Shown piece by piece: positions 4,922 to 61,400 of a DNA stretch of 64,000 nt (positions are counted from its first letter, which is position 1; the number at the start of each line of letters is the position of its first letter). The position numbers were made by a program, and so were the translations under genes. The stretch is from Liolophura sinensis (Eukaryota > Mollusca > Polyplacophora > Chitonida > Chitonidae): assembly GCF_032854445.1 (NCBI RefSeq), contig NC_088302.1, positions 1,614,001 to 1,678,000 of the forward strand. The letters run 5' to 3'. The notes beneath the pieces are model-generated. The model had not been told where the DNA came from, did not search any database, and worked only from the letters and a program-made list of their open reading frames with translations.

Positions 4922-5197
4922 TCACTGAGCAGTACGCTGTAGTAACTGCTGAAACCTCTGCGTCACCAGAAGGGACACGTCTATAAAACGATCCACACAG
5001 TTTGTCAAACAGGTCTCCGTCCTTCCGTCCAGTTTATCACGAGGCTTGTCAAAGCACTGGTCCCAGCAAACATCCGTTAGTTTGTGAATCTGTACCTGAA
5101 GCTGGGCTTTCTGCTGCTCTACCTGGATAAACTGTTGTAGCTCTTTATCCCCGCTGTTCTCACCGAGCCTGGAGGCGTCCATGTCAAACGACGACAT
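4922..5197 (-). CDS. TIMM8: Mitochondrial import inner membrane translocase subunit Tim8
   Basis: Small zinc-free chaperone of the mitochondrial intermembrane space. With Tim13 it escorts hydrophobic precursors to the TIM22 complex (family knowledge). The 91-residue frame has the diagnostic twin CX3C motif: C44-WDQ-C48 and C63-LTN-C67, 14 residues apart, followed by the conserved VDRFIDVS. Lengths of 88-100 residues are usual. The N-terminal part (LQQFIQVEQQKAQLQ, residues 20-34) is the amphipathic helix before the first cysteine pair. The whole coding region is one exon. A TTTGTAG acceptor-like site lies 3 nt before the ATG on the minus strand, so a 5' UTR intron is likely. The start is the only Met ahead of the conserved core with this context. 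No intact competitor exists on the other strand. Whether it is closer to vertebrate TIMM8A or TIMM8B cannot be told here. Confidence 0.95.
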   Translation of the reverse strand: MSSFDMDASRLGENSGDKELQQFIQVEQQKAQLQVQIHKLTDVCWDQCFDKPRDKLDGRTETCLTNCVDRFIDVSLLVTQRFQQLLQRTAQ

Positions 5198-5846
5198 TGT
5201 CTACAAAGGGTTGAATGTTTATGTTGGGTTTGATATCTACTCTGAGCTGAATGTCCACTCTAGCTAATTCCTTCTCACAAGAATGAATTCTACAGGCAAA
5301 GGTTAAGGGCTAGTTCTTGATGATCCTGAAGTAAATAATACAAGGAAGTAAGGGTTCATGTCTGTCTATTGTGAAAGAATTAATCAGGAAATTAATACGA
5401 AATGGCAAATTTGTAATATCAGCCTCAAAATTAACTTATCAGCTGGTTTAAAACAGCACTATTGATACAAACCTATCTAAATACACTCAACATAAAATGG
5501 CAACGTAAACCAGTAAGACAAACAGATTTCCACAAATATTTATGGGATGTAGTTTCAGTCGATAAGTATTAAAATTTAGTTGAGGAGTCAGGTAACTCTA
5601 AGATGGAGCAACACAAGAGTGTTGCGATAGTTACTCTGGGAAACAACCTCAAACGTGTCGCACTGACAGAACAGACCATTTAGAACATCTCTACACATGC
5701 ATTAGAATTCCCTAGCTTAAATCAATGTCAAATGAGCGGTCCCCATAAACAGCTAAGTTGTTCTGAGTCTCGCTGAGCCAAAGACGATCCATGAAAAATG
5801 CACAAATACACAAAATAAATGTTTTTAGAACACTACACCCACTGTG

Positions 5847-9873: not shown

Positions 9874-10012
9874 ATGTCCTCACAGAAGCTGTTAGTGCGC
9901 CCCAGCTCACAAGACAAGAAGGCAGACTGTAGACTGATCTGTTTCCCTTGGGCTGGAGCTGGGGCTTCCTATTACATTAGCTGGGCAAAGAAATTCTCAC
10001 CAAGCATTGAAG
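9874..10012 (+). CDS. OLAH: OLAH exon 1 (first coding)
   Basis: Residues 1-46 plus one base. Carries CFPWAGAGASYY, the conserved strand and turn at the start of type II thioesterases. Donor GAAG|GTATGA, phase 1. Confidence 0.88.
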
Positions 10013-13000
10013 GTATGATTTACAGAATTATTAAAAAATAAACAGATTGGTATATTACACTTATTTCGCAAACCAGAGATGTGATTTGTACTCATATTGT
10101 TTTGTTGGTTAATGATTTTGTTTTGAGAAGTTGTTGATAGTTATAGCTGGGTAATTATACGGTGCTCATCTGAAACAACTATTACACCACATGAGAATAT
10201 CATTAGTTAGGGGGAAATGTACATACTACTGAGCACATAATTAGATTTTTAATATTAAACTTATTATGAAATGAAAAGAATGAAAGATCTGTGGGCCATT
10301 TGTACCCTAGCTATTGTCAGTAGAGGACTGGCAACATGTGCCTGCCATACATTCTCAATAATTTCAGATGCATTTTTAGAAAATGTATACCATGATGCCA
10401 TGCAGAGGCTGTTGTTTTAAGTCCTACACTCTCTGTGGGCAGTGTGGGATTACCAGTATTCCATCGGTGATAGTAGTTCACATCCCCGTGACACCTCATT
10501 GAACCTCACTGAGTTGAATACTGAATAATGGAATGAGTGTTTGTCCAAATTCGAGGAAAATCTTAGCTTGGAATCTAATTAAGAATACCAATGTTAATAG
10601 CTCATGTCCATTCTTGGGACTCTTGATGTGGTCAGAGGCCAAGCTGTGAATTTCTGTAATATTTTAATCATGGTTTAATCATGGATGAGGTCTGCACATT
10701 TGTAATCCACATACACACTGCATATTTTGTCTTGCTATAAATGTTCAACTGAGAAGTTTTTCAAGATATTTCAGTTTAATTGAAGTCCGAATGAACTGAG
10801 TGAGGTTTGCGAGGGATGGGTGTCTGGTACTTGCATCAGTGGGCTTGGAAGGCATTTGTATGATAAAGTCTAAAGCCCGGTTTAGATAATTTAGTGACAT
10901 ATACACATGAATGTACATGTAATACTTTTTCTGGAAATACCTGTGGTAATATGTTACAAATCATCTTTTTAAAATGAATCTAAAAAGATTGTAATCAACT
11001 ACCTCACCCACCCCCTGTCATATATTGATGTCATGTTCCTGCCAAATTAGACAGGTGGTCTGTAATAAATGGAAAGTCTGTCTTCAAATCTGACACGCGT
11101 GCACTATCGTCATGGGTGTTTTATCCACATATGCAAGGCAGCATTATAAGTTCAATGATCCAATGCCAATCGTCCATGTTCCAGTCTTGTATGGACCACA
11201 TACACGAGTGGCCTAATGCGGTGGGGTGTGGAATGCTTCCCTGTAAATAATGCCACAAACCATCAAGTTTAAATATTGAATAACATAGTTTGTAGAACAC
11301 AAGCCAGAAAACGGCATGGTGAGTGTTGTGGGAAGGGAAATAGCAAAGTTTTCACTGGATTGATGTTCCGGTATGAATATTTTTATCTTTTTCTTCCTGT
11401 AAACAAGCATGTATACTGAAAAATGACATCGTGAGTTGTCTTGTACAAGCTCTCAGAAAAGGCTCGCTTTATAGGCCGGGGTAGGCCTATACTCCAGCTG
11501 GGCCAACTGGCACAGCGATGTCACCCATGCTGACAGCTTTGCAGGAGACTTCTCTGATCTACCCGCTTACTGTCAATATGCCTCAATGTACGGTAAATGC
11601 TACAATCTGCAGTGTTTCACTAATACATGCACATGATTGGTGGTCATGAAACAGAACATGCAGCTTAACATAAGTTACCATCTCCCCAACCACTCCACCC
11701 CCACCAGCCCTCCTGTCCATAGATACACAACGGATACCCTGTTTTCCTTAAAACCTCTTTTTTTGGCCAAATGACTGATGCATTCACATCTAGCATTAAA
11801 CAAGGTCTTATTAATAATAGTTCAGCTCCTATGTTTTCAGTGGTAGCACTGCGCCCACCTGGAAGAGAAATTCGTTTCAAAGAGCCAAATTTCAGGACAT
11901 TAGAAGAGGCGGTGACGCAGACCACAGAAGCAATAGTACAGAATCTTCTGGACAAACCGTTTGCTTTCTTCGGACACAGGTATAAAGTACATATGTAATA
12001 CATGTACATATATACATCTTGGTTAGAGCTCCTCAAACAAATATATGATACATTTACTTAAAAACATCTTGGTTAGATCTCCTCAAACCCATATATGACA
12101 CATGCATAAATACATCATGGTTAGAGCTCCTCAAACAAATATATGATACGTGTACATATATACATCATGGTTAGAGCTCCTCAAACAAATATATGATACA
12201 TGTACATATATACATCATGGTCGGAGCTCCTCAAACAAATATATGATACATGTACATATATACATCATGGTCGGAGCTCCTCAAACAAATATGTAATACA
12301 TGTACATATATACATCTTGGTTAGAGCTCCTCAAACAAATATATGATACATGTACATAAATACATCTTGGTTAGAGCTCCTCTAGTCCACCCAGAGCACA
12401 CTTGTATTCCACTTAGAGCACACTTGTATTCCACACAGGCAATACCTCTAGTTCACCTAGAGCATGCTTATAATCCACCCAAAACAAACTTGTATTTCAC
12501 ACCGAGTACACTTGTAGTCCATCCCAAGAACTTGTAGTCCACTCAGAGAACTCTTTTGCCTGACTTGCTTTTTCCTGTTGTAGCTGGGGGTCTTTGCTCA
12601 GCTTTTCTGTGGCTGTGAGATTGAAGGAGAAACATGGGGTGGAGCCCATCCACATGTTTGTGTCAAGCATGTCCGCACCTCATGTAAGTCCAGTCTACCT
12701 CTACAAAGTCTTACCTAGAACAGTAATATCCATCATGTATACCTCTTACAAAGTCTTACCTAGAACAGTGATAACAGTCATGTAAACCTCTTACAACAGC
12801 TTACATAGAACAGTAATATCCATCATGTAAACCGCTTACAAAGTCTTACATAGAACAGTAATATCCATCATGTAAACCTCTTACAAAGTCTTACATAGAA
12901 CAGTAATATCCATCATGTAAACCTCTTACAATGGCTTACATAGAACAGTAATATCCATCATGTAAACCTCTTACAAAGTCTTACATAGAACAGTAATATC

Positions 13001-16000
13001 AGTCATGTAAACCTCTTACAATGGCTTACATAGAACAGTAATATCCACCATGTAAACCTCTTACAGTGGCTTACATAGAACAGTAATATCCATCATGTAA
13101 ACCTCTTACAGTGGCTTACATAGAACAGTAATATCCATCATGTAAACCTCTTACAATGGCTTACATAGAACAGTAATATCCATCATGTAAACCTCTTACA
13201 AAGTCTTACCTAGAACAGTAATATCCATCATGTATACCTCTTACAAAGTCTTACCTAGAACAGTGATAACAGTCATGTAAACCTCTTACAACGGCTTACA
13301 TAGAACAGTAATATCCATCATGTAAACCTCTTACAAAGTCTTACATAGAACAGTAATATCCATCATGTAAACCTCTTACAAAGTCTTACATAGAACAGTA
13401 ATATCCATCATGTAAACCTCTTACAATGGCTTACATAGAACAGTAATATCCATCATGTAAACCTCTTACAAAGTCTTACATAGAACAGTAATATCAGTCA
13501 TGTAAACCTCTTACAATGGCTTACATAGAACAGTAATATCCACCATGTAAACCTCTTACAGTGGCTTACATAGAACAGTAATATCCATCATGTAAACCTC
13601 TTACAGTGGCTTACATAGAACAGTAATATCCATCATGTAAACCTCTTACAGTGGCTTACATAGAACAGTAATATCCATCATGTAAACCTCTTACTAAGTC
13701 TTACATAGAACAGTAATATCCATCATGTAAAGCTCTTACATAGTCTTACATAGAACAGTAATATCAGTCATGTAAACCTCTTACAATGGCTTACATAGAA
13801 CAGTAATATCCATCCTGTAAACCTCTTACAAAGTCTTACATAAAACAGTAATATCCATCATGTAAACCTCTACAACGGCTTGCATAGAACAGTAATACCA
13901 AACTTTTCTTCCAGTCCGCCCAGGTTCAAGAAAAAGACAAAGTGACGAAGAAGAGTAACAAGGAGTTTTTGGACTTCATGAAATCATTAGGTAAAAGTCT
14001 TACTCCACTTCAAGAATAGTCCATCTCTACCAATCACTGTGTTGTGTCTGATGATAAAACCAGCAGTAATTGACATCCATTTATTGGTTGGCTAGTTGTG
14101 AGTTATCCATAAACCAAGTAAGAGCTGATTCAATCATTCTTTCGGAATCAAGATTTGTGGTGAGGGAAAAATGGGATGCAATTTAAAGAATTTGAAGATT
14201 TTGTGGCTTTGGTAGGTGTACATGATTGGACTGTTTAAGCTCCCTGTTGTATGTGCTGGTGTGAGTGGAATCTTGTCTGTAGAATCATAGCCACATGTTT
14301 TCAAACCGAACGTATTTATCATCAAATTGATTAACATTTGTGTTATTGGTGTATAATTCTATGCTTAAAGCAATACTTTAGTCCTAAGTGAGACCATTTG
14401 GAAATATTAAACTGATATGAAGGATACCCTATGGAATATAGCTAGCACTAGGGTTTAAAAATTGACACTGAATAACGGAATTTAACCTCTATTAGTGAAA
14501 AGTCATCAAAAACAAAATTTTCAACAGTTCCCGTAAAATTTGAAAGTACAACGTCATCTGGCACTGAACGTCAGGGATGGGTAACGCCAAGTGTTCTTGC
14601 ATGACTTCACACCAAGCAGAATTGGAAATGGCAGAAAACTTTTGTTTCCGTGTTATCCTCTGGAACTAACAACAACGGTTTTAATACAGTGCATGTTTTC
14701 TACAATTTAAGAAAGCAATTCCAACTATCTTGATCCTTATCATTTAACCCTGCCTTTAGCACATACATGTCTTAACACTAAAGTAGCTCTTTAAGAATTT
14801 TTCATCAACCCTGTGGTGGTCAGTTTAATGAGTGGAAGAATCCGGATAGTTTAGGGTTCAACACCGGCCATTGGCAAGAAGATTTAACTGATGGACTTGA
14901 CCCATGTGTATCTTGTGGATTAACTGACACTGAGTTAGCTTAAGGTGTGCATTTTTCAGCTGTAGTGAAAGGACTAGCCTAATTCTTCAACCTTTTCAAC
15001 CAACTCTGCAACCAGTATTTTGAAGCATTCTGAAGGAACTGTGTGGTGTAGAGAAATAATTGGCACAGTTTTATCAAGCTTGCATCTTAAGCAACACAAA
15101 CAAATCATTTTTAGCGTCATTTTCGTAAGAATTGTAAGATTTACAGTAACTGGCCTGTTAACAAGTACTGTTCACTTTGTGTTGTCATTGATGCCCTGAC
15201 AATATAATTATTGGAGGTGGTTTTGTGATACCATTGCCAGTCTGTCAATCAAATTCAAGAGGGCATAACTCTTACGACGTGTACAAAGATCTTGTTTGTG
15301 CATTACAGGGGGGACTCCTAAAGAAGTGCTGGAGAATGAGGAATTAATGGAGATGTGCCTGCCATCAATGAGAGCTGATTATGGCCTCTATGAAGAGTTC
15401 AAGTAAGTAGTGGACCCACCCGTATTACATGGCCACCATGTACATGTGGACAGTGTGCCTAATCCCTAATCCCTAATCCCTAACTGTGGCCTCTATGAAG
15501 AGTTCAAGTAAGTGGTAGACACACCCGTATTACATGGCCACCATGTACATGTGGACAGTGTGCCTAATCCCTAATCCCTAACTGTGGCCTCTATGAAGAG
15601 TTCAAGTAAGTGGTAGACACACCCGTATTACATGGCCACCATGTACATGTGGACAGTGTGCCTAATCCCTAATCCCTAACTATGGCCTCTATGAAGAGTT
15701 CAAGTAAGTAGTAGACACACCCGTATTACATGGGCACCATGTACATGTGGACAGTGTGCCTAATCCCTAATCCCTAACTATGGCCTCTATGAAGAGTTCA
15801 AGTAAGTAGTAGACACACCCGTATTACATGGCCACCATGTACATGTGGACAGTGTGCCTAATCCCTAATCCCTAACTGTGGCCTCTATGAAGAGTTCAAG
15901 TAAGTGGTAGACACACCCGTATTACATGGCCACCATGTACATGTGGACAGTGTGCCTAATCCCTAATCCCTAACTATGGCCTCTATGAAGAGTTCAAGTA

Positions 16001-17598
16001 AGTGGTAGACACACCCGTATTACATGGCCACCATGTACATGTGGACAGTGTGTCAAATCCGTAATCCCTAATCCCTAACGGTCAGTGGAGGAGTTGACGT
16101 TGTTTTGACCACTACCAGTCACACTGACTAAAATCACATAAAGTCACATGTAGTCACATAAAGATACCACGACCAACTCTCGTGCTCTATTGTAGTCACA
16201 TAAAGATACCACGACCAACTCTCGTGCTCTACTGTAGTCACATAAAGATACCACGACCAACTCTCGTGCTCTACTGTAGTCACATAAAGATACCACGACC
16301 AACTCTCGTGCTCTACTGTAGCCACATAAAGATACCACGACCAACTCTCGTACTCTACTGTAGTCACATAAAGATACCACGACCAACTCTCGTGCTCTAC
16401 TGTAGTCACATAAAGATACCACGACCAACTCTCGTGCTCTACTGTAGTCACATAAAGATACCACGACCAACTCTCATGCTCTACTGTAGTCACATAAAGA
16501 TACCACGACCAACTCTCGTGCTCTACTGTAGTCACATAAAGATACCACGACCAACTCTCGTGCTCCACGAAAAGGTTTATGGTTAGTTTTGCAATTAACC
16601 TTCTCTAAAAATGCTTGACTTTACTTGTAATAACCACTTGTTAATCTTAAGTCAACTTGCTGAAAACTGAATTTTGATGCATTTTTCTTTAAGTTTGAGT
16701 TTGTACTTTCACTGTCGAGTTCACATTCTTTGGCTACATAATACTTAGAGTCTTAATCCGGTACTCAATGTTCAGGTACACAGGTACTCAATGTTCAGGT
16801 ACACAGGTACTCAGTGTTCAGGTACACAGGTACTCGATGTTCAGGTACACAGGTACTCGATGTTCAGGTACACAGGTACTCAGTGTTCAGGTACACAGGT
16901 GCTGTGGTACTCTGTGTTCTCACCAGTCACCAGGCTAGTAAAGCAGGTGTTTGTTTCCACCTGTAGGTACAAGTTACCTCCCACTCCACCACTCTCCTGC
17001 CCTTTACACGTTTTTGATGGCAAAAATGACAAGAAGCATGATCTGGATGGTAAGTACTTATTCCACAGAAATACCAGGACTTATAACAAAACTGTGTCAG
17101 TTCATCTTCTCTTATTTGTTGTCAGAAATGGTGGAGTGAAAAGACTGATATTACAAAGGAATTCATTTCCCAAGTTTTGTTAACACATGGTTGAACGTTT
17201 GGTAGACCTAAAGATATATTCTCTGTAATAATGTCTCAGTAAGTAAAATTTACATTACATTAAATATTTGGTCATTGATTGCTGAATACTGTTTTACAGT
17301 TGTGTTATAGTTGTAATATTGTCACCTGAGTTATCCATTGTAATCATCTGCTTTATTCACACAAACCATCAGTGTTAGTACCATCAGCAAGTAGCTTTCA
17401 TCTCATATCAGAATATACAATAGGACTTCTGCATTTTGATTGGCAGGCTGGCGTCAGGTGACCACAGGAGATACAGTCTGTGACATGTATCCAGGAGGCC
17501 ATTTCTACTTCAAAGATAAAGCAAATGAATCCAAGATTATTGGCCAAATCAATACTCGTCTTCAAGATTTGATTAGACTAACAGATCAGCCTCTCTAA
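9874..17598 (+). CDS. OLAH: S-acyl fatty acid synthase thioesterase (oleoyl-ACP hydrolase), type II, 7 exons
   Basis: Stand-alone alpha/beta-hydrolase that releases fatty or polyketide acyl chains from acyl carrier protein; cytosolic in its family. Exons: 9874-10012, 11841-11979, 12584-12683, 13915-13990, 15309-15402, 16967-17049 and 17447-17598. All junctions are GT-AG and phases match throughout, giving 783 nt or 260 residues plus TAA (vertebrate OLAH is about 265). Motifs: CFPWAGAGASYY (residues 23-34, oxyanion-loop region), ALRPPGREIRF, GHSWG with nucleophile Ser93, LGGTPKEVLENEELM, LPSMRADYGLYEEF, VFDGKNDKKHD with probable catalytic Asp204, and PGGHFYF with His229. The Ser93 codon is split AG|C by intron 2. 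The start is the Met before SSQKLLVRP; an ACAACAG acceptor 14 nt upstream (9859) implies a non-coding exon further 5'. Introns 2, 3 and 5 are filled by minisatellites, and the one in intron 5 copies the exon 5 donor. The partner could be a fatty acid synthase or a polyketide synthase; neither is in the window. Confidence 0.9.
10013..11840 (+). other. OLAH intron 1
   Basis: 1.8-kb intron without tandem arrays or recognisable mobile elements. It is unusual here in being plain AT-rich sequence. Confidence 0.75.
11841..11979 (+). CDS. OLAH: OLAH exon 2
   Basis: Acceptor ATGTTTTCAG. Encodes VVALRPPGREIRF through PFAFFGH and the first two bases (AG) of catalytic Ser93. Donor GGACACAG|GTATAA, phase 2. 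Confidence 0.9.
12000..12385. repeat. 50-bp minisatellite, about 7 copies (OLAH intron 2)
   Basis: Unit contains GGTTAGAGCTCCTCAAACAA followed by ATATATGATACATGTACATA. It starts about 20 nt inside the intron, just past the exon 2 donor. Copies differ by single bases (TTAGAG/TCGGAG). Confidence 0.9.
12386..12550. repeat. degenerate 20-22-bp repeat
   Basis: Imperfect copies of a word based on GAGCACACTTGTATTCCAC, about 7 units, directly following the 50-bp array and ending about 35 nt before the exon 3 acceptor. Confidence 0.65.
12584..12683 (+). CDS. OLAH: OLAH exon 3
   Basis: Acceptor TTCCTGTTGTAG. The first base C completes Ser93 and continues WGSLLSFSVAVRLKE to MSAPH. 100 nt; donor CAT|GTAAGT, phase 0. 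Confidence 0.9.
12690..13900. repeat. 45-bp minisatellite, about 27 copies (all of OLAH intron 3)
   Basis: Unit includes TTACATAGAACAGTAATATC, CATCATGTAAACCTC and TTACAAAGTC (variants TTACAATGGC, TTACAGTGGC). It begins about 7 nt after the exon 3 donor and ends about 14 nt before the exon 4 AG. A distinctive variant pair at 12711-12780 (TACCTAG, GTATACC, GTGATAACAGTC) recurs 495 bp (11 units) later at about 13206-13275. Confidence 0.95.
13915..13990 (+). CDS. OLAH: OLAH exon 4
   Basis: Acceptor AACTTTTCTTCCAG. Encodes SAQVQEKDKVTKKSNKEFLD to MKSLG, the charged lid-region segment. 76 nt; donor TTAG|GTAAAA, phase 1. Confidence 0.88.
13991..15308 (+). other. OLAH intron 4
   Basis: 1.3-kb AT-rich intron without arrays. 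No element recognised. Confidence 0.7.
15309..15402 (+). CDS. OLAH: OLAH exon 5
   Basis: Acceptor GTGCATTACAG. Encodes GGTPKEVLENEELMEMC, then LPSMRADYGLYEEF, a family signature. Donor TTCAA|GTAAGT, phase 2. The last ~22 nt plus the donor are the founding copy of the array that follows. Confidence 0.92.
15379..16075 (+). repeat. 98-bp minisatellite that copies the exon 5 end and splice donor
   Basis: Seven units including the real exon edge (first period 105 bp, then 98). Each holds GGCCTCTATGAAGAGTTCAA with GTAAGT, then ACACCCGTATTACATGG, CCACCATGTACATGTGGACA and two or three CCTAATC heptamers. Duplicate donors lie at 15508, 15606, 15704, 15802, 15900 and 15998, all intact GTAAGT. Reading on from exon 5 without splicing meets TAA at once (AAG TAA). 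Confidence 0.95.
16147..16568. repeat. 42-bp minisatellite, 10 copies (OLAH intron 5)
   Basis: Unit includes GTAGTCACATAAAGATACCA and CGACCAACTCTCGTGCTCTA. The period is a multiple of three, so frames stay open on both strands (14-residue repeats). I read these as artefacts of the period. Confidence 0.95.
16762..16906. repeat. 23-bp minisatellite, about 6 copies
   Basis: Unit based on TTCAGGTACACAGGTACTCA with A/G variants. Ends about 60 nt before the exon 6 acceptor. Confidence 0.9.
16967..17049 (+). CDS. OLAH: OLAH exon 6
   Basis: Acceptor TTTCCACCTGTAG. Encodes YKLPPTPPLSCPLHVFDGKN and DKKHDLDG; Asp204 is the probable acid of the triad. 83 nt; donor GATG|GTAAGT, phase 1. Confidence 0.9.
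17447..17598 (+). CDS. OLAH: OLAH exon 7 (last)
   Basis: Acceptor TTTTGATTGGCAG. Encodes WRQVTTGDTVCDM, then YPGGHFYF with catalytic His229, then a C-terminal helix ending RLTDQPL and TAA. Confidence 0.92.
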
Positions 17599-35000: not shown

Positions 35001-38000
35001 AATCCAAAGGTATCCAACAAAGTGAGAGTAGTTGTCAACTAATCTTTTTAGCACAGATTTGCTCTTACTTTGACTCTAGGCACAGAGAAGGCGATTGGTT
35101 CCACTGTTGTCGCCCTCAGAACAGAGCCCCGGGCAAACTCCACCTTGCGTACGTCACACTCACACTTGGGGAGAAAGGACAGAGCCTGGTGCAGCGTACC
35201 TTTGTAATCTGACAGTCGGAAAAAGTGAGGGTACTCTTCTGATACTTCAAATGCTACCACAGTGCTGTCTCCCTGTGTAAACATACAGCAAACATAAGAG
35301 ACCATGCTCAGCTGATACTTCAAACCCTACCACAGTTCTGTCTCCCTGTGTAAACATACAGCAAACATAAGAGACCATGCTCAGCTGATACTTCAAATGC
35401 TACCACAGTGCTGTCTCTCTGTGTAAACATACAGCAAACATAAGAGACCATGCTCAGCTGATACTTCAAACACTACCACAGTGCTGTCTACCTGTGTAAA
35501 CATACAGCAAACATAAGAGACCATGCTCAGCTGATACTTCAAACACTACCACAGTGCTGTCTCCCTGTGTAAACATACAGCAAACATAAGAGACCATGCT
35601 CAGCTGATACTTCAAACACTACCAGTGCTGTCTACCTGTGTAAACATACAGCAAACATAAGAGACCATGCTCAGCTGATACTTCAAACACTACCACAGTG
35701 CTGTCTCCCTGTGTAAACATACAGCAAACATAAGAGACCATGCTCAGCTGATACTTCAAACACTACCACAGTGCTGTCTCCCTGTGAAAACATACCGCAA
35801 ACATAAGAGACCATGTTCATCTGATACTTCAAACACTACCCCAGTGCTGTCTCCCTGTGTAAACATACAGCAAACATAAGAGACCATGCTCCGCTGATAC
35901 TTCAAACACTACCACAGTGCTGTCTCCCTGTGTAAACATACAGCAAACATAAGAGACCATGCTCAGCTGATACTTCAAACACTACCACAGTGCTGTCTCC
36001 CTGTGTAAACATACAGTAAACATAAGAAACAATGCTCAGCTGATACTTCAAACACTACCACAGTGCTGTCTCTCTGTGTAAACATACAGCAAACATAAGA
36101 GACCATGCTCAGCTGATACTTCAAACACTACCACAGTGCTGTCTCCCTGTGTAAACATACAGCAAACATAAGAGACCATGCTCAGCTGATACTTCAAACA
36201 CTACCACAGTTCTGTCTCCCTGTGTAAACATACAGCAAACATATGAGACCATGCTCAGCTGATACTTCAAACACTACCACAGTGCTGTCTCCCTGTGTAA
36301 ACATACCGCAAACATAAGAGACCATGTTCATCTGATACTTCAAACACTACCCCAGTGCTGTCTCCCTGTGTAAACATACAGCAAACATAAGAGACCATGC
36401 TCAGCTGATACTTCAAACACTACCACAGTGCTGTCTCCCTGTGTAAACATACAGCAAACATAAGAGACAATGCTCAGCTGATACTTCAAACACTACCACA
36501 GTGCTGTCTCCCTGTGTAAACATACAGCAAACATAAGAGACCATGCTCAGCTGATACTTCAAACACTACCACAGTGCTGTCTCCCTGTGTAAACATACAG
36601 CAAACATAAGAGACCATGCTCAGCTGTTAACACACAGCAAACATAAGAAACCTGATCATTTGGGTTATAATACAGTGTAATCAGTGTGTGAAAAGACAGA
36701 AAAACCTCACTGGTCAAGGACCATAGTAGCTGCATTTATTCATTCATCTGATTCGTGTCTTACGCCATACTTAAGAATGTTTCACTTATACAACGGCGAC
36801 CAGCATTAGTGAGAGGCTCCTGAGTCATTGCACTGTTCTAGCAAGCTAACCACCTCGGGCACAGAGGCCCCCAGCTGCATTTATACATCAGTGCAGCAAG
36901 ACTCCACTCAGTAGTGTTTTGGATTTTAGCTAGTTTTTGTTCCCTTACTCTAACGCCACCTCGACAAATTCAAGAACTCACCCGTCCTGTGAGTAGGAGT
37001 GTTGAGCTATCCTCATCATAGTATGGAATCAAAATGGCGGGTGTGGAGTCCAGGCCCTCCCGTGACAGTGGTGCCTCCAGATTCTCTACATTGTAAATAC
37101 TCAGTTCTCTCTGCCTGGTTCTGGTGGGTAGAGCAAAGCAAACAACTACTGTGAACACAACGCATACATATCATGGGTGGGCAGGTGAGTGGGAGGAGGA
37201 TAAGGGAATACGAGTAGGCTGAAACTGTAGACATACAGACCAGCCCCCGTCACAGCACATCTGATATCACTTCAGAGGATATTGCTCAGTGAAGATTGAA
37301 TACCGTAAGTGTTTGGGGGAAATGATAATCCATCAGATACAAAGTGTGAAGTAGGTTATCATGTCCAACTTTCACGAGAAAAATATTCATGGTATTCAAA
37401 CTTCACTAGTATTATGTAATATTCTATTTATTACTTATATTTCGACAATATCATGATTTTGTGTATCTGAACAAGTTTATGCAAGTCCATTAATCAGTCC
37501 AGTCCATTTATCTTTGAGGGTAACTTGTAAAACTCAGACGCAGCACTCATAAATGTCACTCATAAAACTCAGGAGGTGCACTCACAAATGTCACTCATAA
37601 AACTCAGGGGCTGCACTCACAAATGTCACTCATAAAACTCAGGGGCTGCACTCACAAATGTCACTTGTAAAACTCAGAGGCAGCACTCACAAATGTCAAT
37701 GGTAAAACTCAGGGGGTGCACTCACAAATGTCAGTCGTAAAACACAGGGGCTGCACTCACAAATGTCAATGGTAAAACACAACGGCTGCACTCACAAATG
37801 TCACTTATAAAACACAGGGACTGCACTCACAAATGTCACTTGTAAAATTCAGAGGCAGCACTCACAAATGTCACCCGTAAAACACAGGGGCTACACTCAC
37901 AAATGTCACCTGTAAAACACAGGGGCTGCACTCACAAACGTCACTCATAAAACAAAGGGGCTGCACTCACAAATGTCACTCATAAAACACAGGGGTTGCA

Positions 38001-44000: not shown

Positions 44001-47000
44001 TGATGGGGGTGGGTTGAGGGGCAGGTTCGATCTTCTCCTGAGAACACACAATGTTACACAGGTGAGTGGTGTTGTAATGAGGTGCAGGTGCTCCATCAGG
44101 AAGCCCCCTTTACATTTAAGTCATGATATCTGATGTTCCAAACTTTAATACTGTCCTTAAATTAAAGTTTCCACAGGGAACCTTTAACATCAAAAGTACA
44201 AATACAGCTCTCTTCTCCATCATAAAGCATTTGATCACACCCATTAGCTGACTTAGACAATGTCAACTGTTCTCCAACACTACACACTAAATCATCCAAT
44301 GTTGTACATTTGGGCGTCTCCAAATCTTGTTCCGACAACCATCCACGAACACCTTAATGTTAAGCTTACCACGAGCACCGGAGGTGGATCCCGTCTGTTT
44401 ACTGGTGGGGACCGCTCTGGTTTCTTCACCTCTCCGTTCTTCTTCGGTTCTGCATGTCCGTTCCCGTGAGGTCCTGGTTCAGTTTTGTGAGTCTGTATCA
44501 GAGTTGCCTGCCCCTTATTCTGTCCCCGTTTGGTCATAAGAGGCGGAGCTTTGGCAGGATTCAGACTAACTTTCCTTACCTACAAACATAATTCTCAAAA
44601 TACAACACTGGTCTTACTTTATTAAACAGAATCTACAGGTAATATCAGCCCTTGTTTGAAACTATTTTGGTGTCATAATATAATGGTATAAAGTACAATT
44701 AAAAATGGCTTTTACTGAGTGTAGAACTGTTTAATTTTCTAGATAGGAGCTGGAACCTGATGACAAGTTTTGATTTATTATTTATTTATTTGACTGGTCT
44801 TTTACACCGTACTCAAGGTTATTTCATTTATGCGCCAGCGGCCAGCATTATTGGGGAGGAAACCGAACAGAGCCCAGGGGAAACTCACGACCATCCGCAG
44901 AATACACTTTGTAGTCAGAATACACATATACTCCAAGAAGAGTCAAAACAAAACAAGCAAATTATAAAGAGAATTAAATCTAAATATGCAAGAATTAAGC
45001 ATATACATGTACCACAGAGGTTTGTGTGTTAGTGTGGGATATATAGACCATCGCATCTTGTGAATGTCAAATACTGAAACCCTTCCCTAAAAACACATCA
45101 ACTTTATTTTGTCAACATTAATCCCCTGTATAAACACTAGTGGCACTATGTCATTAGTTAGTCGAGGCCTTAGTAGTAACTCCAGCGATGCTCACAGGTG
45201 TGTTAGCTCCGGCCAGCCATTCATCTGCTGTCATGGAGGGCTCCAGGGAGTTTGTGTCGGGGAATATGTCTGCGTGGAAATCTCTGTAGGACTGAAAGAA
45301 TAAAACTGAAACGCTACAGAAACTGCATGTCCATGTTAACCACGTCAAAATACTTTGAGTTAAACAATTCATCATATCAAACTTCCAATTATTTCACTTG
45401 TATCAGTTAACCATGTAACCACTAAGTATGCATTATTGTACAACAGTCAGAAAACAACATTAATTTATCAAGGACAAATGATCTGATTTTAAACATCATG
45501 CCCCAGGTTTATGAAGAATATGTGGTCTGGTTTTATGGCTCTACACTTTTGCCCATGACTAACTTGTATTATTAGCCTGATTCTGAGATCTATTGATATT
45601 AAAAGGGTATTTTGAGGTTTCAACTATCCCCAACCCTCTCCCCACACACACTTTCAACCCTCAACCCACACTAACCTTTCTGGGTACTATGTACAGGATA
45701 CCAGCCCTCAACTATCCCCCATCCTCTCCCCCCACACACTTTCAACCCCCAACCCACACTAACCTTTCTAGGTACAATGTACGAAGCCTGCTGGATCGAT
45801 GCCTTGTTCAGTAAAAGTAACCGGTTAGCCTCGCCAGACATCACATCGAGTGCCCTTTTGGGGACCATTGTGCAGCCCTTAATTTGCTCTGTGCGATCAG
45901 TGCCAGCTGAATGACAAAAGTGATCCCTTTTATTACAGGTAATGCTCAGCCAATGAGCATGTTTTCATTTCTCTGAGAAACAGTTCAAATCCCCGAATGT
46001 AATAACTGCATCACTCCTTCCTTCACGACACTGGTGACATAATTTAACAGGAGTGTGAAGCTCTAAACACGTCACAGCACAGGAATCTGCTCACTTCTTA
46101 CTATTACTTGTGCTTTTGTTCAAAGTTCTGCTCGAGTCTAGTTTCAGGTGTCACAAATATTATCATCAAATATGAAATTTCCAAATTATAAGCTATTGCT
46201 GAAGATTACAATGTTTTCTATGTTAGGCATGTAGGTTTGTTTGTCTGTCTGCCAAAAATCCTGGTCATGACCACTCGACACAGACAGCAGGCTTACCGAC
46301 ACAGATATCTGGCTTGTCAACTGGGGGAGTAACAAGAGCTGCCATAAAGTGCTTACCATGAAGGGTAGCAACACGTAATTTACCCAATTGGGAAATGGCA
46401 AAGAATTGGCAAATGTGCAGGGACAGTTTCCACTAAGCCATTTCTGACTTACGTCAGATACACTGTAACCCATGCATAGGAGAATTCAACAATTATACAA
46501 TTATCTATCTTACAATAGCTTTTTTTATTAATTCTTCTGTTTGTAGCCAAATAAAGTGACACACATTTTCAATTTATTAAGAAAGCCCCTCACAAGTTTT
46601 GATACAGGACACCAATAACAGAAAGTCCGTTACCCTTACATGTACATGATCTATACACAACATCTACAGCTGAAGTCAGTCACATGAAATATAACTTACA
46701 TTCTGACAAAAAAGGATCTTTATCTGACAGCTCCCAGAATTTTAAAATAGAGTCAGCCTGGAAAAAAAAATTAAAAACAGAAGAATTTAAATATGAAGTT
46801 ATTTCAAGGTTTACAGACATTTACAATAGCAACTCAGCTCATCTCAGTTCTCACTGGTTAAGGATGAGCATTTTCGCAGCTTCACAAGAGTAAACTTCAG
46901 ACAAATCTATCTTTGTACATATAACAGTGAAGATTAAAATCCTCTGACTGAGGAATAATCTGTAGTCTTATACTACTCTCCTAAATGCATCCCAACAGTT

Positions 47001-50000
47001 TTAGTTTGTGACAGGCTATGGACAACTTCCTGATAATTAGGCCCTGAGGTACAATGGATTTTGGACATTGAACAAGAGGCAATGTGTGATTTCCACAGCA
47101 CTCTTACCTTGCTAATCAGGAACACCATATTTGTATCTGGATCATAAAATGGCATTATTGTCCTGCAGAATGAGAAAATGTTGCTACATATAATCTCAAA
47201 CCTCTAGATAAACAGTAGTCATCTGCCGGTTGAGAAAGGTACATGGGCATTTTAACCCTGGGGGTGAAATTTTAAAATCTCACACCCAGGTTTTAAATGT
47301 CCATGTGCCCTTCGCAGATAATGATCTTGCCCATACAATGTTTATCAAATAGAAAGCCAGTTGGTTTAAATTCCATATCCCCGGTGAGGGCATGGCCTGT
47401 AGCTCTGACAAGTGTGTGTCAACAGTTTAACCCGCCTGATCAACCAATGGCAATAGAGAATCACAGATCATGTAAGGGACAAAGTAAGTTATTTAATATT
47501 CTACAGTTTACTCCTCAGAACCCATATACACGTCAACTAGACCAAATGAAAGTGACTTTATCATAGATATATCTATATATGTACATTGTTAAGACTTGCC
47601 CATCCATAATTCTTCAGGAACACTTACCCTGTTGATGAATCTAGTGTAAATGTCTTAGTGGGTGATGTCAGATGTCTACAGTCCCATAAAAATACTTCTC
47701 TGCTTCTCATCTAAAACAAAAATTCATTTACATGTATGCTTTCATAATGTACGATTGTATGAAGTATTTTCATACAATACTTCACTGACACTAGTGACAC
47801 TGTCTTTTCTTAGCAGTCCAGGTTCAATGTGGACACATTTATAATGCTGCCTCAGTAGAACACCATTCTAAAGACATCAGACCTAACACCCAAATCACTT
47901 GACTGACCCCGAGCATGACCAGGTATGTGGTATACATGTACATCGTCTACACCATGGCTCAGTTGTTCAAAGTGTGTTAAGACTTAAGCCCGGTATTAAC
48001 TACAGTCCAGACTGAAGTGTCATTTACACTGTATTAGGATGAGACTGGTGTTAAGATTTAAGCATTAACTATAGTCCAGACTAAAGTGTCATTTACTCTG
48101 TATCAGGATGAGACTGGTGTTAAGATTTAAGCCTGGCTTAACTTTAATGCATTTTTGAACAACTGGCCTCTGGTCACCAGAACACAGGAAGTGCCTACAT
48201 GTAGACTTCCAATCCTATGCTGTAAATCACATTGTACACACAACTATCTGTACTTCCATAGCAAATAACACTTCTCTGTTCAGTACCTCTGTAAGATACA
48301 GAAATTTTAACTAAGAAGGTGTCAGCATTGTAGTTGGATTTCGGCAATGTTTTGCTTTAGCTATTACTACCATGTATGTTATCACCTTGTAACGGATCAT
48401 CCATATTCATTTCCAGCTTAATTTGGATCAATTCAATTGATTTAGAGGAAATGATAAAGTCCAAAGAACCTACACTCTGTAAAGTGTTCAAATAAAACTA
48501 CCATAACAGGAAACTGTTGATCCCATCAGATTTCCTTCCTTACAAATACCCATATATCTGTCAAGTTTTACATATTACACACATGGATATGACTTCTTTG
48601 TTTGCCACATAAAGAATCAACATATATTACAAAAAGAAAATCATTCCTGAGATTGTGGCCATAGAACTTGTAGAATTTGTGATCTAAGGGAGATAACTCT
48701 ACAGGTTTACATGATGTACTGGTACATCTGGGAAATGCCAATCGCACATTCTCTAACCACTGCTCAGACTGGTTAACTATCTAAGAGTGGCTGCCTTCTA
48801 TCTTCCGTACATGTAAGTCTACCTCCAGCTGAATTACATGTGTTCTAATTCTAAAATTTACTAATGTCTCCAAAAATGAACAGGGTACTTGCAATGCCCA
48901 AAGTGTGAGTGTGGTATAAGTTCAGTAAAACTGGCACCAAGCATTCACCAGATAGTGTGTTTACAAAGATGTGGGCAAGCCGACAGGCCAACTAATGTTG
49001 GCCACTGCGACAATACATCTAGGCAAAGTTTGACTGTAAGGTAACAGCCGTACACAAACGACTGTGGGGTATCAGGTACACAAATGACCCTCAGGTATCA
49101 ACACCAGACAATCCTAGGGTATCAGGTACATAAATGACCCTGGGGTATCAACTATACAGATGACCCTGGGGTATCAGGTACACAGATGACCCTGGGGTAT
49201 CAAGTACACAAATGACCCTCAGGTATCAACAACAGACGATCCTAGGGTATCAGGTACATAAATGACCTTGGGGTATTAACTATACAGATGAACCTGGGGT
49301 ATCAGGTACACAGATGTAGATGTAACTCACATTATCAAACCCTGTGGACAAGAGTTGATCACGGTCACCCAGCCATATCACACGACAGTCCTTTATTCCT
49401 TCATGACCTTCACATTGCTGGAAACAACACAAAAGCAACAATTACAGTACAACCTGATACAGTGCAATCAGGAAACCACAAATGTCATGTATATTATGCT
49501 TACTGCTAGAATGACAAAGCCACATTCTCAAATGAATGCCAATCAGGTCAACACACTCAAAGAAAGGTTTAAAAATACAGATCCTTACACTTACTGTAGA
49601 TTCATTTGCGTCACTAAACATGCCATCTTTGTAAAACTGTGCGAATTATTCTATACACCACATAGTTCTCAGAATGTTTCAAAATATCGGTTGCAGAGGC
49701 AGCTGAAAACACTGAAGAATTAGGGTAACTCTAACAAACACTGGTGCTGTATGTACCCTGTACTGTCCAGCCACATCGTGACATGTAAACATATCCTAGC
49801 CATTTACCTGGACAATGGAGTTTGCTCTGGGGTCTATGATGCGGACCTGCCTGTCCTTACAAGAGCTGGCTAACAGTGCACCTGACCCACGCCAGCTGAT
49901 ACTCTGTATCTGATCCCCAAACTCTGACATATCTACAAGAGAAAGATCAGAGTTTTCTCGGTTTTGTTTACAGTTTGATGTGCCTCAAAAATCTGCTAAC

Positions 50001-55400: not shown

Positions 55401-58400
55401 TAGGCTTGTACCTACATGTACTAGGATTGTGCAGACTACGCTTGTGCTGACTAGGCTTGTGTTGACTAGGCTTGTGCAGACTAGGCATGTGCAGACAAGG
55501 ATTGTGCAGACGAGGATTGTGCAGGCTAGGATTGTGCAGACCAGGCTTGTGCAGGCTAGGATTGTGCTGACTAGGCTTGTGCTGACTAGACTTGTGCAGA
55601 CTAGGCTTGTGCAGACTAGGCTTGTGCTGACCAAGCTTGTGCTGACTAGGCTTGAGCTGACTAGACTTGTGCAGACAAGGCTTGTGCAGACATCTTGTGC
55701 TGACTAGTCTTGAGCTGACTAGGCCTGTGCTGACGTCTTGTGCTGACTAGGATTGTGCAGACTAGGCATGTGGTGACTAGTCTTGTGGTGACTAGTCTTG
55801 TGCTGAATGGGATTGTGCGGAGTAGGATTGTGCTGACTAGGCTTGTGCTGACTAGGCTTGTGCTGACTAGGCTTGTGCAGACTAGGCTTGTGCTGACTAG
55901 GCTTGTGCTGACTAGTCTTGTGCTGACTGGGACTGTGATGACTTGGATTGTGCTGACTAGGCTTGTGCTGACTAGGATTATGCAGACTAGTCTTGTGCTG
56001 ATTAGGCTTGTGCCTACATGTACTAGGATTGTGCTGACTAGGCTTGTGCAGACTAGTCTTGTGCAGACTAGGATTGTGCTGACTATGATTGTGCTGACTA
56101 GTCTTGTGCAGACTAGTCTTGTGCAGATTAGGATTGTGAAGACTAGTCTTCTGCAGACTAGGATCGTGCTGTCTAGGATTGTGCTGACTAGGATTGTGCA
56201 GACTAGGATTGTGCAGACGAGGATTGTGCTGACTAGGATTGTGCAGGCTAGGATTGTGCAGACTTATAGGATTGTAAAGGCTGGCTCCATGTGGGACTAA
56301 CATGCTATCAAAAAAGTTATTAAAGCACATTTTGCTTGATTCTGACAGTTGGTATGAGAAAGCTGTTTTCAGGGGTTTTTTTACCATGGAATATATCCAA
56401 CTGGAGAAATGTAAGTTGCAGAAATTCCCAAACTCTGAAATTTCTAGGCCGCATGCAGACTTCACTGACATTTTACATTTAGTGCATCATCTGTGAACTC
56501 TTACATATATTGACGTCCTCATAGAGCGGCAAACATGGAGATAATTCCAAGCAAACAAAACAATGTTGACAAGAATCAAGAGATGATGGAATTCATCTCT
56601 ATGACTTCCTCAAATATACATATTTACCTGGAATAATAAAAGAGTTTACTGGTCCAAGTCTTACACAATGGATGAAGCAGTTGTATATAATGCCTTTGAT
56701 GTTTGATTTTATGAGAACAAAAGGACATGTTTTGATTAAGGTATACATGAGGATATATATAAATTTAGCTGTATTAGTGTGATTCTCCTCGGATATCCTT
56801 ATCAACACTGCCACCATACGACCATTGTAGTACCACATACACCTCTTACCTGATACATTGCACCCCCTACCCCCCTCCACCCCCAATCCCCTGAACATGT
56901 GATTTATCAGATCATTTGCTAAGCGTTCAAAACAACCATTCCACACGACAGATGACAGGTCATTACCACCATTCTCCTAATCTGTGTGATAATATGTGAC
57001 ACTATGTTACATGCGGGCTGACAGAGAACAAACATTCCACATGACAGATGACGGGTCATTACCACCATTCTCCTAATCTCTGTGATAACGTTTGACACTA
57101 TGTTAGATGTGGGCTGACAAAAAACAAATTTGAATAATGATGTCTAAAGGTGAAATTTGCCCACTATTACATGAACTTTATTTTACCTAAAAATTTGTCT
57201 AAAAATGAGCATTTCAGACAAAAACAAACGTCATAAAATACTAGTATACATGTATTGTTCTAATTTATCATACACAATAATCCTGGTTTTCCAACAATCT
57301 CGAAAAACAGCTACGACCAATACATCAAAATGAGTTATAATAACTTTTTCAGAGCATACAAGTCCGATCTTACATGTACATGTAGTCCCACATGGAGCCA
57401 GCCATTACATAACACAGGTCCCAAACCCATCCTCTCCTGTCACACATGTACATGTAGTCCCACGTGAAGCCAGCCATTACATAACCCAGGTCCTAAACCC
57501 ATCCTCTCCTGTCACACATGTACATGTAGTCCCATATGGAGCCAGCCATTACATAACCCAGGTCCTAAACCCATCCTCTCCTGTCACACATGTACATGTA
57601 GTCCCACATGGAGCCAGCCATTACATAACCCAGGTCGTAAATCCATCCTCTCCTGTCACACGTGTACATGTAGTCCCATATGGAGCCAGCCATTATATAA
57701 CTCAGGTCCTAAACCCACCCTCTCCTGTCACACATGTACATGTAGTCCCACATGGAGCCAGCCATTACACAACCCAGGTCCTAAATCCATCCTCTCCTGT
57801 CACACATGTACATGTAGTCCCACATGGAGCCAGCCATTACATAACCCAGGTCCTAAACCCATCCTCTCCTGTCACACATGTACATGTAGTCCCACATGGA
57901 GCCAGCCATTACATAACCCAGGTCCTAAATCCATCCTCTCCTGTCACACATGTACATGTAGTCCCACATGGAGCCAGCCATTACATAACCCAGGTCGTAA
58001 ATCCATCCTCTCCTGTCACACATGTACATGTAGTCCCACATGGAGCCAGCCATTACATAACCCAGGCCCTAAATCCATCCTCTCCTGTCACACATGTACA
58101 TGTAGTCCCACATGGAGCCAGCCATTACATAACCCAGGTCCTAAACCCATCCTCTCCTGTCACACAAATACATGTAGTCCCACATGAAGCCAGCCATTAC
58201 ATAACCCAGGTCCTAAACCCATCCTCTCCTGTCACACATGTACATGTAGTCCCATATGGAGCCAGCCATTACATAACCCAGGTCCTAAACCCATCCTCTC
58301 CTGTCACACATGTACATGTAGTCCCACATGGAGCCAGCCATTACATAACCCAGGTCCTAAACCCATCCTCTCCTGTCACACACATACATGTAGTCCCACA

Positions 58401-61400
58401 TGGAGCCAGCCATTATATAACCCAGGTCCCAAACCCATCTTCTCCTGTCACACAAATACATGTAGTCCCACATGGAGCCAGCCATTATATAACCCAGGTC
58501 CCAAACCCATCCTCTCCTGTCACACATGTACATGTAGTCCCACATGGAGCCAGCCATTACATAACCCAGGTCCTAAACCCATCCTCTCCTGTCACACACG
58601 TACATGTAGTCCCATATGGAGCCAGCCATTACATAACCCAGGTCCTAAACCCATCCTCTCCTGTCACACATGTACATGTAGTCCCACGTGGAGCCAGCCA
58701 TTACATAACCCAGGTCCTAAACCCATCCTCTCCTGTCACACAGGTACATGTAGTCCCACATGGAGCCAGCCATTACACAACCCAGGTCCTAAACCCATCC
58801 TCTCCTGTCACACAGGTACATGTAGTCCCACATGGAGCCAGCCATTACATAACCCAGGTCCTAAACCCATCCTCTCCTGTCACACATGTACATGTAGTCC
58901 CATATGGAGCCAGCCATTACATAACCCAGGTCCCAAACCCATCCTCTCCTGTCACACATGTACATGTAGTCCCACATGGAGCCAGCCATTACATAACCCA
59001 GGTCCCAAACCCATCCTCTCCTGTCACACATGTACATGTAGTCCCATATGGAGCCAGCCATTACATAACCCAGGTCCTAAACCCATCCTCTCCTGTCACA
59101 CATGTACATGTAGTCCCACATGGAGCCAGCCATTACATAACCCAGGTCCTAAACCCATCCTCTCCTGTCACTCATGTACATGTAGTCCCACATGGAGCCA
59201 GCCATTACATAACCCAGGTCGTAAATCCATCCTCTCCTGTCACACGTGTACATGTAGTCCCATATGGAGCCAGCCATTATATAACTCAGGTCCTAAACCC
59301 ACCCTCTCCTGTCACACATGTACATGTAGTCCCACATGGAGCCAGCCATTACACAACCCAGGTCCTAAATCCATCCTCTCCTGTCACACATGTACATGTA
59401 GTCCCACATGGAGCCAGCCATTACATAACCCAGGTCCTAAACCCATCCTCTCCTGTCACACATGTACATGTAGTCCCACATGGAGCCAGCCATTACATAA
59501 CCCAGGTCCTAAATCCATCCTCTCCTGTCACACATGTACATGTAGTCCCACATGGAGCCAGCCATTACATAACCCAGGTCGTAAATCCATCCTCTCCTGT
59601 CACACATGTACATGTAGTCCCACATGGAGCCAGCCATTACATAACCCAGGCCCTAAATCCATCCTCTCCTGTCACACATGTACATGTAGTCCCACATGGA
59701 GCCAGCCATTACATAACCCAGGTCCTAAACCCATCCTCTCCTGTCACACAAATACATGTAGTCCCACATGAAGCCAGCCATTACATAACCCAGGTCCTAA
59801 ACCCATCCTCTCCTGTCACACATGTACATGTAGTCCCATATGGAGCCAGCCATTACATAACCCAGGTCCTAAACCCATCCTCTCCTGTCACACATGTACA
59901 TGTAGTCCCACATGGAGCCAGCCATTACATAACCCAGGTCCTAAACCCATCCTCTCCTGTCACACACATACATGTAGTCCCACATGGAGCCAGCCATTAT
60001 ATAACCCAGGTCCCAAACCCATCTTCTCCTGTCACACAAATACATGTAGTCCCACATGGAGCCAGCCATTATATAACCCAGGTCCCAAACCCATCCTCTC
60101 CTGTCACACATGTACATGTAGTCCCACATGGAGCCAGCCATTACATAACCCAGGTCCTAAACCCATCCTCTCCTGTCACACACGTACATGTAGTCCCATA
60201 TGGAGCCAGCCATTACATAACCCAGGTCCTAAACCCATCCTCTCCTGTCACACATGTACATGTAGTCCCACGTGGAGCCAGCCATTACATAACCCAGGTC
60301 CTAAACCCATCCTCTCCTGTCACACAGGTACATGTAGTCCCACATGGAGCCAGCCATTACACAACCCAGGTCCTAAACCCATCCTCTCCTGTCACACAGG
60401 TACATGTAGTCCCACATGGAGCCAGCCATTACATAACCCAGGTCCTAAACCCATCCTCTCCTGTCACACATGTACATGTAGTCCCATATGGAGCCAGCCA
60501 TTACATAACCCAGGTCCCAAACCCATCCTCTCCTGTCACACATGTACATGTAGTCCCACATGGAGCCAGCCATTACATAACCCAGGTCCCAAACCCATCC
60601 TCTCCTGTCACACATGTACATGTAGTCCCATATGGAGCCAGCCATTACATAACCCAGGTCCTAAACCCATCCTCTCCTGTCACACATGTACATGTAGTCC
60701 CACATGGAGCCAGCCATTACATAACCCAGGTCCTAAACCCATCCTCTCCTGTCACTCATGTACATGTAGTCCCACATGGAGCCAGCCATTACATAACCCA
60801 GGTCCTAAACCCATCCTCTCCTGTCACACATGTACATGTAGTCCCACATGGAGCCAGCCATTACATAACCCAGGTCCTAAACCCATCCTCTCCTGTCACA
60901 CATGTACATGTAGTCCCATATGGAGCCAGCCATTACATAACCCAGGTCCCAAACCCATCCTCTCCTGTCACACATGTACATGTAGTCCCACGTGGAGCCA
61001 GCCATTACACAACCCAGGTCCTAAACCCATCCTCTCCTGTCACACATGTACATGTAGTCCCACGTGGAGCCAGCCATTACACAACCCAGGTCCTAAACCC
61101 ATCCTCTCCTGTCACACATGTACATGTAGTCCCACGTGGAGCCAGCCATTACACAACCCAGGTCCTAAACCCATCCTCTCCTGTCACACATGTACATGTA
61201 GTCCCACGTGAAGCCAGCCATTACATAACCCAGGTCCCAAATCCATCCTCTCCTGTCACACACGTACATGTAGTCCCACATGGAGCCAGCCATTACATAA
61301 CCCAGGTCCTAAACCCATCCTCTCCTGTCACACATGTACATGTAGTCCCATATGGAGCCAGCCATTACATAACCCAGGTCCCAAACCCATCCTCTCCTGT

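Follow-up and report, generated by a model that had tools for sequence, protein, structure and literature searches.

A minisatellite that repeats the splice donor of OLAH exon 5 in the chiton Liolophura sinensis, and the frequency of arrays at exon edges

Intron 5 of an OLAH-like gene of the chiton Liolophura sinensis opens with a minisatellite whose unit begins inside exon 5 and carries the splice donor of this exon in each of seven copies. The explanation that we favour, with a probability of roughly 0.78, is that of a neutral, homogenised minisatellite which by chance takes in an exon edge, leaves splicing at the most upstream donor, and belongs to a class of arrays arising at about the rate predicted by random birth.

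The OLAH gene and its donor array

The window, i.e., the whole stretch of 64,000 nucleotides that was analysed, contains on its forward strand a gene for an OLAH-like medium-chain thioesterase with seven coding exons (9874-17595), onto which the NCBI L. sinensis OLAH protein P0001 (260 aa) maps exactly with GT-AG introns. A search of the species' own genome with this protein returned seven matches, all of which are exons of this one gene; two single exons also match the Pfam family Thioesterase, with scores below the curated cut-off. Exon 5 (15309-15402, 94 nt, GGTPKEVLENEELMEMCLPSMRADYGLYEEFK) shares its first and last codons with the neighbouring exons, and its donor GT lies at 15403 in phase 2. 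The NCBI model leaves the exon at this first donor, a choice that may lack RNA support at the junction. Tandem arrays make up 80% of the following intron 5 (15403-16966, 1564 nt). Apart from the donor array, these include a 42-bp minisatellite of 9.9 copies (16149-16565) and a 23-bp minisatellite of 6.1 copies (16760-16900) located upstream of the acceptor of exon 6 (16967-17049). The latter array is weakly similar to this acceptor, of which it may be a decayed copy, 0.036 of random segments being as good in what was one of four such tests.

The donor array itself was identified by TRF at 15380-16071 on the forward strand as a minisatellite with a period of 98 and 7.0 copies (95% matches, score 1244), and a repeat search likewise found copies recurring at 98-nt spacing. 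An earlier, sequence-only reading had placed it at 15379-16075 and described a 98-bp unit with about 22 nt of exon 5 and an intact GTAAGT donor; unit length and donor stand, while the borders move slightly and the exon part measures 23 nt (15380-15402). Within the unit this part is followed by GTAAGT and more of the intron, with some 20 nt rich in CCTAAT as its tail. GAAGAGTTCAAGTAAGT is present as seven identical strings, and the splice signal CAA/GTAAGT is kept in 7/7 units. Seven identical donors were counted in this way, as that reading had proposed: the real one (15403-15408), used in the NCBI model, and six extra ones starting at 15508, 15606, 15704, 15802, 15900 and 15998 (together 15508-16003). 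The first unit extends to 105 nt owing to one additional CCTAATC heptamer. Units 2, 3 and 6 are identical, and identity among the inner units is 97-100%. With these, unit 1 shares 96-98% and unit 7 98-99%; unit 7 is no more divergent than the inner units themselves, and edge-unit divergence is accordingly found at the upstream edge only. Most units end in CCTAATCCCTAATCCCTAAC, which resembles, possibly by chance, the CCCTAA telomere repeat listed for L. japonica (PMC11068029).

The exact protein mapping also confirms what use of a spare donor would mean for the product. Past the true end of exon 5 the frame reads TTC AAG TAA, with K183 as the last exon-5 codon, and the stop thus precedes Asp204 and His229, as had been claimed. 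Both residues, presumably catalytic in OLAH as in its family, would be missing from the resulting 183-residue protein; H229 lies within GGHFYF, which aligns to the human enzyme, and D204 was placed by eye against amphioxus and abalone proteins. As the TAA would precede the next junction by about 100 nt and a further junction follows, such a message would be expected to undergo nonsense-mediated decay.

We propose that a segment of about 98 nt across the 3' end of exon 5 was duplicated in tandem, presumably by slippage or unequal exchange, and gave rise to the seven homogenised units. The original exon edge would have remained at the upstream end, with the spare donors inside intron 5, and the coding exon would therefore have stayed whole. 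OLAH would then be spliced at the first donor, as in the NCBI model, probably because exon definition joins the acceptor of exon 5 to the first donor met downstream, yielding the 94-nt exon. The array would be a tolerated passenger, a chiton case of the 'mirages' of amphioxus discussed below, and such arrays would arise at about the rate of chance exon-edge hits. Against this reading, model pre-mRNAs with two equal donors often prefer the intron-proximal one, which would favour a spare donor. On the choice between equal donors our literature search found no paper.

Arrays at exon edges in the window and beyond

Arrays with a period of at least 10 (TRF) account for 36.8% of the window and, within the introns of its two genes, for 49% of the bases. 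The second gene is coronin-7, whose protein P0121 (isoform X2) was mapped exactly with GT-AG introns over residues 22-955 of 957, the gene start falling outside the window; together the two models comprise 28 introns and 56 junctions. Three of these junctions lie inside arrays. Besides the OLAH exon 5 donor, these are a coronin-7 acceptor, located in a 73-bp array of 19.0 copies which extends 34 nt into the exon (35239-36626, reverse strand), and a coronin-7 donor, doubled by an 88-bp array of 1.9 copies which extends 19 nt into the exon (45620-45782, reverse strand). At the acceptor array, the NCBI model uses the last acceptor. The sequence-only reading had noted one gene with copied donors and one with copied acceptors; the latter is coronin-7, and the doubled coronin-7 donor adds a third case. 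The arrays of OLAH introns 2 and 3 and the one near the coronin-7 donor at 49330 were also considered as decayed mirages and rejected, as their units resembled the junction no more closely than random segments did (0.65, 0.19 and 0.40, respectively).

Some introns in the window are filled almost completely. Arrays occupy 94% of OLAH intron 2 (11991-12555), and a 45-bp array of 26.7 copies accounts for 98% of intron 3 (12697-13897), starting 13 nt past the donor and stopping 17 nt short of the acceptor. In introns 2 (11980-12583) and 3 (12684-13914), only about 11-13 nt next to the donor and 17-28 nt next to the acceptor are left, and both give the impression of short introns that expanded from the inside. 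In coronin-7, the first mapped intron houses a 6.1-kb array of 85 copies of a 72-bp unit (57372-63512), which, as 72 is a multiple of 3, gives a 2058-codon open frame on the forward strand that looks spurious. An open frame at 4922-5200 on the reverse strand matches the Tim10/DDP family zinc finger over the full profile.

The sample outside the window consisted of 80 Pfam exon matches to myosin (30 of 81), kinesin (30 of 132) and p450 (20 of 99). The p450 loci were matches free of stops whose open frames were shorter than a whole gene, taken with 350-nt flanks; among the myosin and kinesin matches, 17 of 60 contain stops, and some therefore extend over an intron. An array was located at most 60 nt from the match in 11 of the 80 loci. 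On inspection, three exon-edge arrays were identified, at a myosin donor (L019, 66 bp x 8.1), a kinesin acceptor (L052, 64 bp x 11.8) and a kinesin donor (L065, 73 bp x 21.6), a count that is a lower bound, with match ends and not full exon models used there. At a fourth locus, L027, 32-bp units containing GGCAACAT/GTGAGTAT are scattered around a myosin donor; the exon end and the first clear copy downstream are 64 nt apart, and the locus probably represents an old, partly broken-up exon-edge array. The suggestion that such arrays recur in this genome and are not a single accident is thus borne out by three of 56 window junctions and three (four with L027) of 80 outside matches. Two loci, L076 and L082, showed overlap with a Pfam match but were dropped as, by reading, this match had apparently continued beyond the donor and into intron sequence; L025, where an 18-mer had one copy, as well as L011, L048, L063 and L088, all inspected, were left uncounted. 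At L025 a myosin exon has minisatellites on both sides, about 15-25 nt from splice sites placed by eye. Copies of 18-mers from the match ends occurred at L019, L025 (one), L027, L052, L065, L076 and L082 (one), and mid-match 18-mers were copied at none of the 80 loci, with one position tried versus four per end.

Array density was 6.2% in 13 stretches of 4 kb each taken on a grid (L034-L046), 12.5% at the myosin, 17.2% at the kinesin and 3.8% at the p450 loci, and the array content of the window exceeds that of each outside sample. For L. japonica, a near chromosome-level PacBio HiFi genome of about 609 Mb, of which 27.89% is repeats, has been described together with RNA from five tissues (PMC11068029). 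Its repeat table assigns 0.08% to simple repeat, microsatellite and RNA, compared to the 6.2% minisatellite found by TRF in the grid stretches; the minisatellites may have been counted there as unclassified. The main text of that paper contains no word starting with 'tandem' or 'satellite' (PMC11068029).

Random birth and competing explanations

The sequence-only reading had regarded array birth at exon edges as a recurring process, to be examined as an excess over random placement. Run on the window and the 80 outside matches, this comparison did not uphold a preference for exon edges at this sample size. When one unit per array was placed randomly in the two window genes, 1.03-1.59 junction-crossing arrays were expected versus three seen (21 arrays, P 0.08-0.20). 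A formula version with 20 arrays gave 1.00-1.55, and 1.71-2.66 with introns first collapsed to one unit per array. Random placement of whole arrays resulted in about 8 expected, a value that takes no account of the fact that arrays cannot extend over coding sequence. Among the outside matches, 1.62-3.34 were expected and three seen, and the pooled data at the 5- and 10-nt settings gave six cases versus 2.88-6.00 expected (P 0.07-0.55). Depending on the variant, the one-sided upper limit on enrichment was 2.0 to 4.6-fold.

We consider it unlikely that array birth is targeted to exon edges, e.g., by breakage linked to splicing or transcription at junctions. Donor and acceptor cases both occur, in several unrelated genes, and with L027 as a seventh case one variant, in which 10 nt were required on each side, reached P=0.028 at 2.88 expected; however, P was 0.08-0.39 for seven cases in the other three variants, and the six-case values are those given above. 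In addition, the window had been selected for having the feature, and 18-mers were copied at 3/56 junctions and 0/24 mid-exon positions versus 78/280 intron-interior positions, i.e., junctions are copied less than intron interiors. Support for preferential array birth at exon edges is lacking at the present sample size, and random birth together with tolerance provides a simple account of exon-edge arrays.

It appears quite improbable that the array acts as a rheostat, in which some messages use spare donors, hit the TAA and decay, so that the amount of OLAH made would depend on copy number. The seven donors are all intact, without differences between them, and each spare one leads to the same immediate stop, but homogenisation alone predicts this identity. 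Furthermore, no second L. sinensis name occurs among the named matches in the 120 listed of 367, and in local folding the GUA of the real donor was more exposed (0.51-0.63) than that of the copies (0.04-0.42) in 5/5 settings, the 9-base measure being mixed. As to RNA structure hiding the spare donors, the folding results taken together are mixed. A broader version, which we regard as very doubtful, holds that exon-edge arrays exist at a few percent of chiton junctions, perhaps thousands, and that some of them adjust gene output by copy number, through leaky use of spare donors that lead to a stop; if true, exon-edge arrays would be a heritable, length-variable brake on gene expression.

That intron or exon gain is under way, with the copied exon piece becoming a new exon, has been put forward for the mirages of amphioxus globins (PMC3087553) but is highly improbable here, as the unit, by reading and unscored, has no acceptor with pyrimidine tract and the NCBI model has one plain intron. 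Although misassembly is common for tandem arrays generally, an assembly artefact inflating one donor region is hardly credible for a 692-nt array with differences between its units. The genome, with 609,464,459 bases, is also of the same size as the 609-Mb PacBio HiFi assembly of the L. japonica paper (PMC11068029) and, to judge by size, is probably that assembly.

Relation to mirages and other intronic duplications

The reading as a neutral minisatellite spliced at its first donor extends mirages from amphioxus to a mollusc and is accompanied by counts compared with those expected from random birth. The two genes, with seven identical donors in a row in one and about nineteen near-identical acceptors in the other, also offer a direct natural test of the choice among equal splice sites. 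In the literature searched, with subscription journals mostly outside its coverage, no report of exon-edge arrays in molluscs was found.

In amphioxus, mirages are tandem repeats that span exon-intron boundaries and of which many units contain AG/GT signals; RT-PCR has shown that regular splicing is undisturbed (PMC3087553, PMC3902484). They have been described in Adh3 (PMC3087553), the globins BflGb6 and BflGb9, PGBD5 and troponin C. The chiton units similarly span the exon-intron boundary, including 23 nt of exon 5, and keep their donors (7/7). Mirages also have homogenised inner units next to divergent edge units, a pattern for which the chiton array gives a mixed picture, unit 1 but not unit 7 standing somewhat apart from the inner units. 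Unlike in amphioxus, the host is a mollusc, and in the window genes several other introns consist almost entirely of minisatellites that lack coding sequence. Intron gain by tandem genomic duplication in potato RdRp (PMC4974935) likewise involved a duplication carrying splice signals; the chiton copies, in contrast, remain within one intron in the NCBI model, and according to the NCBI models, which use the original donor and acceptor, no copied splice signal serves as a new intron edge. Ordinary intronic minisatellites cover an equal size range and are found in the same introns, but contain no coding sequence, unlike the OLAH array.
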